This document shows positions 28,252-35,005 of a DNA stretch of 64,000 bases, one piece after another. The position numbers were made by a program, and so were the translations under genes. Within the stretch, counting starts at the first letter, position 1. Each line of letters starts with the position of its first letter. Location of the stretch: contig CACBXB010000004.1 in NCBI GenBank assembly GCA_902543185.1, positions 62,001-126,000 on the forward strand, given 5' to 3'. This stretch comes from Paracoccaceae bacterium. Lineage in GTDB: Bacteria > Pseudomonadota > Alphaproteobacteria > Rhodobacterales > Rhodobacteraceae. The notes under the pieces are model-generated. The model ran no database searches and had not been told where the DNA came from. It was given only the letters and a program-made list of their open reading frames with translations.

Positions 28252-29301
28252 ATGCGTGAAAAAATATTAGCTTTTCTTAAAGATTTTGAATTAGAAGATG
28301 GGGGTAATATTATTTCCCGTGACTTGATGAGAGCACTAGATGTAGATGGTTCAAAAGCATCCTTTGTGCTTGAGGCTCCTTCGCCTGATATTGCAAAAAG
28401 CCTGGACGCCCAAAGAATAAAAATACAGGATAAATTATTGCAAATTGATGGGCTAGATGAAGTGAGTATCATTGTGACTTCGCACTCCAAAGAGCCCCCA
28501 AATCTTAAAATTGGAAGACATCCGGAACCCCAAGAAACTACGATGAAGCCTCAAAGTGTTTCTAAAATAATTGCTATTGCTTCTGGTAAAGGGGGAGTAG
28601 GCAAATCAACTGTTTCGTCGAATTTAGCCGTGGCGTTGGCAAGTAAAGGTAAAAAAATTGGTTTACTGGATGCCGACATTTATGGGCCATCGCAGCCGCG
28701 TATGATGGGTGTGTCCGAACGCCCTCGTAGCCCTGATGGGAAAAGAATTATTCCTCTACACGCCCATGGTGTAACTATGATGTCAATTGGATTAATGGTA
28801 GATCCAAACAAAGCTGTCGTTTGGAGGGGACCTATGCTTATGGGGGCCTTACAACAAATGCTTTCTCAAGTGGAATGGGGCGATTTAGATGCACTCATCG
28901 TAGATCTTCCTCCAGGAACTGGTGATGTTCAATTAACATTATGTCAAAAGGCAGAATTATCCGGCGCCATTATAGTTTCCACACCTCAAGACGTAGCACT
29001 TTTGGATGCAAGAAAAGCAATTGATATGTTTAAAACGCTTAAAACGCCGATCTTTGGTATGATAGAAAATATGTCAAATTTCGTCTGCCCAAATTGTAGT
29101 CATGAAACGCCTATCTTTGGAAATGGTGGCGTATTAATGGAAGCTCAAGATTTGCAGGTCCCTTTGCTCGGCACATTACCAATAGATCTGGATACACGTT
29201 TGGCTGGTGATAACGGTAAGCCAATTGCCCTTACGGAAGGTCCAGGTGCTACAGCCTACAATAAAATAGCTGATGGTTTTATCGCGAGCGGTATACTTTA
29301 A
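28252..29301 (+). CDS. Mrp/ApbC Fe-S cluster carrier ATPase
   Basis: 349 residues. An N-terminal MIP18/DUF59-like domain (about 1-80) is joined to the P-loop domain. The deviant Walker A is [10 protein letters not shown] (about 111-120), and [12 protein letters not shown] follows. The CxxC in FVCPNCSHE is the expected Fe-S ligand pair of the dimer. It transfers 4Fe-4S clusters to target enzymes in the cytoplasm. It is the last gene before the long non-coding region ahead of mraZ, with a 172-base gap after uvrD. Confidence 0.95.
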
Positions 29302-29560
29302 TGGTACTTTTGATTGAGGTTTGGGAAATTATGGGAAAACTTATATTCTGGGGAATCAATACTTTTAAATTTCAAATTGTTAGGCAATATTTTTGCAATC
29401 TTTAGAAAATTACTTCTTTCTGTTTGAAAAAAACACTATTTTTTAAATTAAAGATTTTCCAAATAAATATCCATATATATGAATCAAATTTATTGTATAT
29501 ACTATATGTTGTGCAATAAAAAAAAATATCTTAAATCTATTTGCTGATATACAAAAAATT
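29302..29560. other. AT-rich non-coding stretch between apbC and the mraZ operator
   Basis: About 260 bases with no supportable gene on either strand. It is strongly A/T-rich with runs of A and T. It holds a pair of TGGGA words near its start (listed separately) and a loose inverted repeat TTTATTG...CAATAAA around 29489-29520. No convincing intrinsic terminator for apbC was found. It may contribute to promoter curvature or a second operator for the dcw cluster. Confidence 0.5.
29322..29336 (+). promoter_or_regulatory. Distal pair of MraZ-type boxes (TGGGA-N5-TGGGA)
   Basis: TGGGA at 29322-29326 and 29332-29336 are exactly ten bases apart, the spacing of MraZ boxes. They read on the plus strand. 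A looser TGGGG lies at 29349, off phase. They are about 530 bases ahead of mraZ and 240 bases from the main cluster, so binding is less certain than at the main cluster. Confidence 0.35.
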
Positions 29561-29585
29561 TTCCATAAATTCCCATAAAATCCCA
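29561..29585 (-). promoter_or_regulatory. Triple MraZ-box operator upstream of mraZ
   Basis: On the minus strand three words recur with exact ten-base period: TGGGA (29585-29581), TGGGA (29575-29571) and TGGAA (29565-29561), separated by five A/T bases. In E. coli MraZ binds TGGGN repeats with five-base spacers and represses its own dcw operon. The cluster ends 8 bases before the candidate -35 element. The repeat pattern is directly visible; MraZ binding is inference. Confidence 0.65.
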
Positions 29586-29593
29586 CTTTTTTC

Positions 29594-29621
29594 TTGATTT
29601 AAAAGTTTTTCGGTGTAAATT
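29594..29621 (+). promoter_or_regulatory. Candidate dcw promoter (mraZ)
   Basis: TTGATT (29594-29599) and TAAATT (29616-29621) with a 16-base spacer fit a sigma-70-type promoter. The MraZ boxes lie just upstream. It would start RNA near 29628 and give a leader of about 240 bases. This is a pattern match only. Confidence 0.45.
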
Positions 29622-29627
29622 CATACT

Positions 29628-29832
29628 CGTGATGAGAATGGGAAAAATTAATGGACGTAAAGATCCATCTCCTAAAGTCAGGTTTCATACAGGCCCCACT
29701 TTCATCAGATTTTGAAATCCGGCGCGCGAGCGAGCAGTATCCCCCCCCAGGAGCGCGCGCAGTCGGTTTTCCCCGCAGCGCGGGAAAGTGACAGCGGATT
29801 GAGCAACAGCAGCAGCTCAATCCGCTTCGTCA
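29628..29832 (+). ncRNA. upsM: UpsM-like small RNA / structured mraZ 5' leader (candidate)
   Basis: In Rhodobacter sphaeroides the dcw cluster has an unusually long leader that yields the abundant sRNA UpsM (about 206 nt as I recall). Here the same position holds about 205 bases between the predicted start and the end of an 11-bp stem. The segment from about 29718 to 29830 is far more GC-rich than the genome around it. It has GCGCGC words, a run of eight C, a hairpin at 29768-29787 (TTTCCC/GGGAAA arms) and the stem at 29794-29825. Primary-sequence identity to UpsM was not tested, and the 5' end is only predicted. Confidence 0.5.
29794..29832 (+). terminator. Strong hairpin at the 3' end of the mraZ leader (possible UpsM terminator)
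   Basis: GCGGATTGAGC (29794-29804) and GCTCAATCCGC (29815-29825) pair perfectly over 11 bases around a 10-base loop, followed by TTCGTCATTT. The T tract is poor, so termination would be partial. That would allow both a short RNA and read-through into mraZ, 33 bases later. Confidence 0.45.
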
Positions 29833-29865
29833 TTTAAAGAAGGTTATGAAGAGGCTGAGCAGAGT

Positions 29866-30366
29866 TTGGGACGACGTTTTAGAGGAGAAGGTCTAAACAA
29901 GGTAGACAGTAAAGGGCGGGTTTCGATACCCGCGCTTTTCCGCCGGGTTATTGAGTCTTGTGATCCCAATTGGACAGAGGGTCTGGCTCCAGAGTTAGTT
30001 ATCGTTTATGGCGATGAGAGAAGAAAATTTATTGAATGCTATACGATAGAAGCTATCGAGGAAGTGGACAGCAAAATCGACAGGCTTCCTCGAGGATCTC
30101 TTGAAAGAAAGACACTTGAGCGTTTCTTTCATGGGCAAAGTATTCCCACTTCTATCGATGAAACAGGACGCTTGGTTCTGTCTCCTAAATTGAGAGAACG
30201 ATTTTTTATTGAGAAAGAAGCATATTTTATTGCAGCTGGTGATACTTTTCAAATTTGGAGCCCTGAGATTTTTGAAAAAGATAAAGAGGAAACAAATCAA
30301 TGGCTCAATGAGCAGCCAAAAGATTTTGATCCCCTTAGTTTTCTAGACATGGGGTCTGACCAATAA
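29866..30366 (+). CDS. mraZ: Transcriptional regulator MraZ
   Basis: 166 residues from TTG 29866. No in-frame ATG exists upstream, and MGRRFRGEGLNKVDSKGRVSIP aligns with rhodobacterial MraZ starts. Two SpoVT/AbrB-like halves carry the DNA-contact motif: DSKGRVSIPALFRR near the N terminus and DETGRLVLSPKLRE near residue 100. MraZ binds TGGG repeats upstream of its own gene and represses the dcw cluster. It is first in the cluster and its stop overlaps the rsmH start by one base. Confidence 0.95.
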   Translation: MGRRFRGEGLNKVDSKGRVSIPALFRRVIESCDPNWTEGLAPELVIVYGDERRKFIECYTIEAIEEVDSKIDRLPRGSLERKTLERFFHGQSIPTSIDETGRLVLSPKLRERFFIEKEAYFIAAGDTFQIWSPEIFEKDKEETNQWLNEQPKDFDPLSFLDMGSDQ

Positions 30367-33526: not shown

Positions 33527-35005
33527 ATGCCTAAACCTAAACGTCTTAGTAGTCTTGGCCTTTATCCCGAAAACGGTAACGACCCTTTAATAAACGAAAT
33601 TATATTTGATAGTAGACGAGTTAAACCAGGATGTTTATTTGCTGCGCTTAAAGGTGTTTCGGTTCATGGTGCTAAATTCGTAGAGGCCGCTCTTGAAGCT
33701 GGTGCATCAGCGATTTTAACTGATCAAGAAGGTGCATTTAATCTAAAAGATATAAAAATTGACACTTTAGTAGTGGAGAAAGATGCTCGCAGAGCTTTAG
33801 CAAAAGCCGTTTCTATATTTATGGAAAAACAGCCTGCAATAATAGTTGCAATAACTGGAACTAATGGGAAAACATCAGTTTCGACATTTTGTAGGCAGCT
33901 TTGGAATGCGATGGGAATTGATGGAATAAATATTGGAACAACAGGAATAGAGGGAAGCTGGTCCGCACCTCTTAATTATACAACACCAGACCCAGTGCAA
34001 CTTCATGAAGTTTTGGCAAAGGCTGCCTCCGAGGGGGTGACACACGTGGCTATGGAAGCTTCAAGTCATGGTTTGGATCAAAGGCGCCTGGATGGAGTTG
34101 AAATTAAAGTTGCAGCTTTTACAAACTTTTCACGAGATCATTTAGACTATCATGTTTCAATTGAAGATTATTTTAATGCTAAAAAGGGATTATTTGAGCG
34201 CTTATGCCCCGAAGAAAAAGTTGGTGTGTTTAATATCGATAATAAAGAAATTAAGAACCTTTGTGATTGGTATGCTTCAAACAATGACGTTTTAACGATT
34301 GGTCACGATGAGATGGCGGATCTTGTGATTTTGGACCAAAAATTTCATTCGAATAGCCAAGAAATTAGATTTTTATTTAAGGATAAAATTTATCAAAAGT
34401 CTATCAATTTAATAGGAACTTTTCAGGCTGAAAATTTATTAATGGCTGCTCTTCTAGTCATTTCATCTGGTTGTAAAGAAAGTGAAGTTTTTGAGCTGTT
34501 GGAGACTATTAAGCCGGTTCGAGGTCGCATGGAATTAGCTGCAACAAGAAGAAATGGAGCTTCTATATATGTAGATTATGCTCACACTCCGGAAGCTATT
34601 GAGGTGGCGTTAAAATCTCTCAAGCCCCATATTTTGGGAAAATTAATAGTTATTATTGGAGCAGGTGGCGAGAGAGATGAAGGAAAACGCCCTCTAATGG
34701 GGTTGGCAGCAGAAAAAAACTCAGATTTCGTAATTATCACTGACGATAATCCGAGAAATGAAAACCCAGAATTAATCCATCAAATGATCAAAAATGGCAT
34801 CAAAGATAAAAATAAAGTGATGGTCATTGGTGACAGAGCCGAAGCAATACTAAAGGCTGTTGACTTATTAGGAGTGGGCGATTGCCTTCTTATAGCGGGT
34901 AAGGGTCATGAAACTGAACAATTTATAGGAGAAAACATTTTCCCATTTGATGATTTTGAACAAGCCAGCCTATCAGTTTCTTCCTTAGATGGAATAGAGC
35001 GATGA
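33527..35005 (+). CDS. murE: UDP-MurNAc-L-Ala-D-Glu:meso-diaminopimelate ligase
   Basis: 492 residues. The ATP loop GTNGKTSV lies near residue 116. The carbamylated-lysine region (YFNAKKGLFERL) and DNPRNE (the DNPR box that selects meso-diaminopimelate over lysine) are present. It adds the third residue of the peptide stem in the cytoplasm. Its stop overlaps the murF start by 4 bases (ATGA). Confidence 0.97.
   Translation: MPKPKRLSSLGLYPENGNDPLINEIIFDSRRVKPGCLFAALKGVSVHGAKFVEAALEAGASAILTDQEGAFNLKDIKIDTLVVEKDARRALAKAVSIFMEKQPAIIVAITGTNGKTSVSTFCRQLWNAMGIDGINIGTTGIEGSWSAPLNYTTPDPVQLHEVLAKAASEGVTHVAMEASSHGLDQRRLDGVEIKVAAFTNFSRDHLDYHVSIEDYFNAKKGLFERLCPEEKVGVFNIDNKEIKNLCDWYASNNDVLTIGHDEMADLVILDQKFHSNSQEIRFLFKDKIYQKSINLIGTFQAENLLMAALLVISSGCKESEVFELLETIKPVRGRMELAATRRNGASIYVDYAHTPEAIEVALKSLKPHILGKLIVIIGAGGERDEGKRPLMGLAAEKNSDFVIITDDNPRNENPELIHQMIKNGIKDKNKVMVIGDRAEAILKAVDLLGVGDCLLIAGKGHETEQFIGENIFPFDDFEQASLSVSSLDGIER

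Follow-up and report, generated by a model that had tools for sequence, protein, structure and literature searches.

The leader of the mraZ gene in the window, by which we mean the whole 64,000-nucleotide (64-kb) stretch of DNA analyzed here, is a homolog of UpsM, the small RNA (sRNA) made from the mraZ leader of Rhodobacter sphaeroides. In the complete form of this explanation, to which we assign a probability of about 0.86, the leader of a low-GC and presumably marine genus (judging from the isolate names) gives rise to both an sRNA and read-through transcripts, contains a receptor for the sRNA StsR and is preceded by MraZ boxes. UpsM is already known as a kind of RNA; what is added here is a low-GC homolog, the conservation of its 5'-terminal domain, R1, and a family-wide sRNA pair.

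A Folded, GC-Rich Leader Upstream of mraZ

The leader (29628-29865) precedes mraZ in a genome of the Rhodobacteraceae, at the locus of UpsM. An Mrp-like gene (28252-29301) is followed by a stretch of only 22.7% GC (29302-29627), by the folding leader and by mraZ (29866-30366, + strand), the first gene of the dcw cluster, which has a TTG start codon, matches the Pfam family MraZ (3e-13) and is followed by mraW/rsmH. The GC content is 52.1% in the leader and 63.1% in its R2-R4 part (29712-29833), against 39.6% in the whole window. The leader folds with a minimum free energy of -79.2 kcal/mol; in a set of 200 dinucleotide shuffles (z = -3.11), 2 were equally low. When 238-nt stretches were sampled every 119 nt, 1 of 536 folded equally well on the + strand, at 29751 and overlapping the leader, and 1 of 536 did so on the - strand. 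These figures confirm the GC-rich, hairpin-dense leader in AT-rich surroundings that had been noted in the preliminary description. The stem that was reported there with 11 bp is present, but consists of 12 perfect pairs (29793-29804/29815-29826).

A search of Rfam 15 gave no match at the gathering score at the leader, and a lax threshold gave a single chance match (E 3.8). By eye, a 16-codon frame starting with ATG (29846-29896) overlaps the mraZ start; it is not conserved, since the ATG is replaced by ATA in leaders L002 and L003.

Homology to UpsM

Relatives were identified through the MraZ protein, which was matched in 54 of 61 genomes, and the leaders of the 30 best loci were read. Fourteen of these belonged to the genus of the window, for which 16 genomes were available, 2 of them yielding no mraZ, and 16 were from outside the genus. 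A covariance model was built from 13 of the 16 leaders outside the genus (alignment A1); the remaining 3 (L024, L026, and L030) were left out because their R2 hairpin differs. In the whole genome of the window, this model found the leader at 29679-29836 with a score of 103.1 bits (E 8.1e-22), followed by matches of 21.3 bits (the antisense strand of the R4 stem), 13.0 bits and 11.7 bits. Second matches were seen in many genomes of the family. All 14 leaders of the genus matched the model, with 99.6 to 107.9 bits for the 8 leaders of clade A and 48.8 to 60.3 bits for the 6 leaders of clade B. The leaders that had been left out scored 39.3 bits (L030) and 37.0 bits (L024), and L026 gave no match.

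The model matched 227 of 248 genomes of the family (202 of the 214 good ones). In a draw of 289 genomes across the class it matched 4, all of them Rhodobacteraceae, and the genomes of this draw without a match may include family members.

For comparison with the original UpsM we used the leader L065 from genome G090, which we take to be R. sphaeroides strain 2.4.1. This assumption is supported by the fit to the published leader: 268 nt upstream of the mraZ start, L065 reads CGAGATGAGAACGGG, the start codon of mraZ is GTG, and a 55-codon ATG frame spans the terminator like the published sORF (PMC5089854). When L065 is aligned with the window, the published start corresponds to 29628 and the end of the 206-nt RNA to 29833. 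Together with the covariance model, this predicts an UpsM homolog of 206 nt (29628-29833, + strand). The start proposed in the preliminary description agrees with the transferred start to the base, and it is the R. sphaeroides alignment that supports it. Its central proposal, an UpsM homolog that extends into a low-GC lineage, was borne out by the score of a model built from other genera, by the R. sphaeroides alignment and by the match to all 14 leaders of the genus; the covariance-model search named there as a check was thereby passed.

The R1 Domain and Its Core

Both the window leader and that of R. sphaeroides fold into 4 elements, R1 to R4. On the + strand of the window, R1 (29630-29707) has a closing stem, P1 (29630-29637/29700-29707 and 29639-29642/29695-29698), and an internal hairpin, P2 (29651-29668). 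P2 is followed by the core CAGGTTTCATACAGGC (29679-29694), our proposed binding site for StsR, which lies ahead of the 3' strand of P1; the StsR-like sRNA encoded in the same genome contains its exact complement over 16 nt. R2 (29714-29771), a long hairpin with a C-rich loop, shows good conservation among the 13 A1 leaders. The fold then gives a short hairpin, R3 (29772-29784), and a terminator-like hairpin, R4 (29788-29833), with the tail UCGUCAUUU. In the alignments A1 and A2, the R4 stem includes pairs in which both bases have changed. In clade B (L009-L014), R1 and R4 are kept, and the same C-run is enclosed by a different and shorter R2 hairpin. The earlier reading thus changes in two details: conservation covers R1 in addition to R2 to R4, and R2 differs in clade B.

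R1 was called "hardly conserved" in the 2016 paper on UpsM (PMC5089854). In the leaders compared here, R1 is a conserved domain with a covarying closing stem and the nearly invariant core CAGGUUUCAUACAGGC. The pairing of the P1 strands within 157 leaders averaged -17.6 kcal/mol, as compared to -14.8 kcal/mol when the strands were swapped between leaders; the best of 5000 permutations reached -15.6, and 127 of the 157 leaders exceeded their swap mean, in a control that leaves relatedness in and for which the leaders were picked for carrying [CG]ATACAGGC. For the 41 leaders without TCATC in the 3' strand of P1, the corresponding value was -18.2, against -13.5 and -13.7.

The motif CATACAGGC was present within 340 nt upstream of mraZ in 29 of the 30 leaders with the best MraZ matches, a count for which the leaders were not chosen by the core. 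The exception, L026, carries GATACAGGC. A core scan of 187 loci, from which 12 loci without [CG]ATACAGGC and 17 duplicates were dropped, left 158 leaders; the full 16-mer was found in 131 of these and TTCATACAGGC in 153, counts that are biased upward because the rows were chosen by their core. At least 5 of the 12 dropped loci have a leader with a changed core (L099, L103, L109, L150, and L181). In L103, L109, and L181 the core is off by one base, and a G-U pair with the sRNA is still possible at this position.

In R. sphaeroides, UpsM is cut by RNase E at nt 76/77, as derived from the published fragment sizes of 206 and 130 nt (PMC5089854). Transferred by alignment, the equivalent position is 29699/29700 on the + strand of the window, at the 3' strand of P1, which would fit an action of StsR in which a double-stranded site is exposed.

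A Conserved sRNA Gene Complementary to the Core

Ten genomes were searched for complements of the core with G-U pairs allowed. This wobble pattern gave 57 sites and its reversed form 32, so that it is unspecific on its own; our argument therefore rests on the exact 14-mer GCCTGTATGAAACC, which was located inside one conserved stand-alone gene in all 10 genomes. The gene was read directly in 7 of them and placed by a later model in G024, G028, and G088. One further exact 14-mer (L207) was present outside the sRNA gene in G018.

In the genome of the window, the sRNA gene (G000:C3:50848-50925, equal to L253:1501-1578) is located between a gene resembling yejA, as judged by eye, and an ORF of 229 amino acids. 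It starts with ACTGCTCGATAGGTTTCTTGCCTGTATGAAACCTGCCTCAA and ends with a hairpin and a U run, and its fold places GCCUGUAU in a loop of 10 nt. The R. sphaeroides copy (L203, minus strand, G090:C4:1443993-1444071) measures 72 nt to the fourth terminal U, with 68 nt plus 4 U. The 2 copies are identical over nt 1-41, contain the same 2 hairpins and are both located next to a transporter gene of one kind, named yejA-like by eye.

A model built from 7 copies matched 242 of the 248 family genomes (212 of the 214 good ones). Within the genus of the window, 12 of 16 genomes were matched with 97 to 105 bits, one more scored 28.7 bits and 3 showed no match to this model; none of these last 4 genomes is over 90% complete. 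In the class draw of 289 genomes, strong matches (100 to 109 bits) were confined to 4 family members, and the 23 others, all outside the family and with 24.7 to 32.9 bits, are taken as chance matches to terminators. The genomes of this draw without a match, too, may include members of the family.

The CTTG in the -35 region of the sRNA gene may hint at control by RpoH. StsR of R. sphaeroides is described as a 72-nt sRNA under RpoHI/HII control whose binding to UpsM makes a double-stranded region accessible to RNase E (PMC8307010), and StsR-driven cleavage is described there and in 2 further papers (PMC11354728, PMC8625941). By its length, its pairing with the core and its context, the conserved gene of about 72 nt is very probably stsR. 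Rfam 15, searched with a lax threshold, contained no family at the gathering score for the sRNA of the window's genome. SorY, SorX, and suhB were rejected as identities, with 27.6, 22.5, and 20 to 22 bits against gathering scores of 111, 46.6, and 41, respectively. The open-access literature yielded no paper that joins StsR, UpsM, the Rhodobacteraceae and conservation; the conservation of the gene may already be covered in the StsR paper in NAR (Gruetzner 2021).

Pairing between the Leader and the sRNA

In the genome of the window, nt 20-35 of the StsR-like sRNA and the core at 29679-29694 can form 16 Watson-Crick pairs with -27.4 kcal/mol; about 4.3 and 8.7 kcal/mol are needed for opening. 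The complementarity score was 40, and the maximum among 200 shuffles of the leader was 28 (0 of 200 as good). By this complementarity, the leader would share with UpsM the trait of being a target of StsR. In R. sphaeroides, 12 contiguous pairs (score 29, with 1 of 200 shuffles as good) are followed by a C.A mismatch.

Another 30 genomes were chosen for the pairing test because their leader or their sRNA had diverged. In 19 of these, at most 2 of 200 shuffles were as good as the real leader, and most use the classic site. In three genomes the predicted pairing is long and reaches further 3' on StsR, over 19 nt in G093, 16 nt in G232, and 15 nt in G069, between nt 22 and 42 of the sRNA and with 0 of 200 shuffles as good in each case. 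In G134, also among the 19, the best stretch is located 33 nt before mraZ and outside R1. The other 11 genomes did not reach the level of at most 2 in 200 shuffles. The numbers of shuffles that were as good were 3 in G244 and G196, 4 in G203, G148, and G161, 8 in G023, 16 in G122, 18 in G141, 21 in G029, 71 in G068, and 172 in G032. In G032, a contig end truncates the leader. The leader of G029 scores higher when reversed than in its real orientation.

In G098, the sRNA loop (L281) and the leader (L307) have both diverged; the leader keeps ATTGAGGTAGG, which can pair with nt 32-42 of the sRNA. The mraZ match in this genome contains one internal TGA.

A second partner, for the loop of R2, was also considered. 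The 17-mer complement of the loop was searched for in 8 genomes with up to 2 mismatches, and sites with zero mismatches were found in 7, always opposite the leader itself. With 2 mismatches, there were 3 further sites (1 in G090 and 2 in G180), and G028 had no site at this threshold. A second partner was rejected, since the zero-mismatch complements occurred only opposite the leader in these 7 of 8 genomes.

Putative Promoter and MraZ-Type Boxes

A putative promoter, assigned by eye, is located at 29594-29621 on the + strand, with TTGATT at -35 (29594-29599), TAAATT at -10 (29616-29621) and a spacer of 16 nt. This location is consistent with the start that the R. sphaeroides alignment gives. 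A consensus promoter scan did not call a promoter at the leader, where the match to the consensus is weak.

MraZ boxes are TGGGN-type repeats with a regular spacing. Just upstream of the -35 element are 3 tandem repeats of this kind, CCATAAATTCCCATAAAATCCCA, with a period of 10 bp (29563-29585, + strand). They are the sole match without mismatches in the 64-kb window; with one mismatch allowed there were 2 matches, against 0.01 expected. The other one, at 33902-33924 on the - strand, lies inside a frame (33527-35005) that looks murE-like by eye, and is probably due to chance. The tandem pattern NCC[AG]N6CCC[AG] was present upstream in 143 of 156 leaders of the family, as compared to 5 of 156 for the reversed upstream sequences and 4.9 for letter shuffles. 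The repeats fit MraZ boxes, and binding by MraZ may be supposed on the basis of their sequence.

Alternative Explanations

A GC-rich sequence generally folds well, and the folding z-score of the leader is only -3.1, so that hairpins could in principle have arisen by chance in a leader with no kinship to UpsM. The score of the covariance model, the R. sphaeroides alignment and the model matches in 227 of 248 family genomes refute this explanation, to which we attach a negligible probability. A less improbable alternative, although still an unlikely one, is that R1 is an aptamer for a ligand or a protein, i.e. a riboswitch, that sets read-through at the terminator, the sRNA match being secondary. 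The plan of R1, with a covarying closing stem, the hairpin P2 and a near-invariant core, does resemble that of an aptamer, and a riboswitch was suggested in the 2016 paper (PMC5089854). However, the same paper did not find its R2-R4 switch to be conserved, an sRNA that is equally distributed in the family complements the core exactly, and the cores of G069, G093, and G232 have changed while predicted pairing with the sRNA is kept at a position further 3'.

The alternative that we take most seriously, while still doubting it, accepts the leader as an UpsM homolog by sequence and holds that the clade of the window uses it mainly in cis, as a dcw leader: R4 would terminate poorly, the structure would serve mRNA stability or the translation of mraZ, and no abundant sRNA would be made. 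The 12-bp stem of R4 is followed by a tail poor in U and was not called by the terminator scan. The T-score of the tail was 1.45 in each of the 8 leaders of clade A, as compared to 3.56 to 3.85 in the 6 leaders of clade B. However, UpsM of R. sphaeroides, which is reported to terminate, scores 1.85, and 92 of 143 other leaders are as low as clade A; moreover, the R4 stem persists, with both bases replaced in some of its pairs. By the T-score, clade A stands apart from clade B, but R. sphaeroides and the majority of the other leaders overlap with it. For this reason, and because the T-tract method lets G-U pairs absorb the U run, we do not claim a weakened terminator for the clade of the window.

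A Proposed Model for a Probable StsR-UpsM Pair

By analogy with R. sphaeroides, transcription would start near 29628 and mostly end at R4, near 29833, producing an sRNA of about 206 nt; the transcripts that read through would form the mraZ/dcw mRNA, whose leader would be 238 nt long. R1 would act as the receptor for the StsR-like sRNA encoded elsewhere in the same genome. The sRNA loop GCCUGUAU may first pair with AUACAGGC of the core, after which the core segment AGGUUUC would replace the 5' stem arm of the sRNA itself, extending the duplex to 16 bp. Such pairing could loosen P1 and expose the RNase E site at 29699/29700. The levels of UpsM and dcw mRNA would then be lowered in stress and stationary phase, as is reported for R. 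sphaeroides, and MraZ bound to the promoter boxes may repress the same transcript.

The low-GC UpsM leader, together with an sRNA of the same genome that matches it perfectly over 16 letters, makes it probable that the regulatory RNA pair known from one species is common to the whole family. We lean, with some reserve, towards a broader view in which R1 is a dedicated StsR receptor throughout the family, and in which StsR and UpsM form an ancient switch between stress and division across the Rhodobacteraceae, including low-GC members. StsR would have stayed near-constant, with the leaders keeping complementarity, some of them by shifting the paired stretch, and the same transcript would be under feedback from MraZ. 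Because R1 is conserved family-wide and matches a co-distributed sRNA, the link between StsR and UpsM becomes testable in any cultured member of the Rhodobacteraceae. It also points to a way in which the low-GC and probably marine members may couple their division to stress. As neither RNA of this genome matched an Rfam 15 family at the gathering score, 2 families could be added.

Comparison with Known Systems

SreA and SreB of Listeria, which are derived from riboswitches, are similar in that they are sRNAs made from leaders that may act in trans (PMC5089854). They differ in that the evidence here points to an sRNA, not to a ligand, as the partner. The tandem TGGGN-type repeats with a 10-bp period at the mraZ promoter resemble the MraZ boxes known from the dcw promoter of E. 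coli. In that species, MraZ is described as repressing its own cluster (PMC8475190). In contrast to E. coli, the boxes here are located at the predicted UpsM promoter, and the sRNA would therefore be controlled as well. In R. sphaeroides they are located where the spacer between -35 and -10 is expected, whereas in the lineage of the window they are upstream of the -35 element, as judged by eye.

The equation of the L203 gene with StsR (RSs0827) of R. sphaeroides is inferred from length, pairing, and context. The closest known relative of the window leader is UpsM (RSs0682) of the same species, which depends on Hfq and RNase E, and for which partial termination gives the sRNA, about 1 in 100 transcripts reading through, with no separate start for mraZ (PMC5089854). 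The leader to mraZ is 238 nt long in the window and 268 nt in R. sphaeroides, the place aligned with the start of the published sORF has no ATG by eye, the R4 tail differs, and the core can pair with the sRNA over 16 instead of 12 nt. The 2 RNAs have in common their locus, the order of R1 to R4, the 206-nt length and the equivalent start base, as placed by the alignment, and much of the sequence of the core, R2 and R4.
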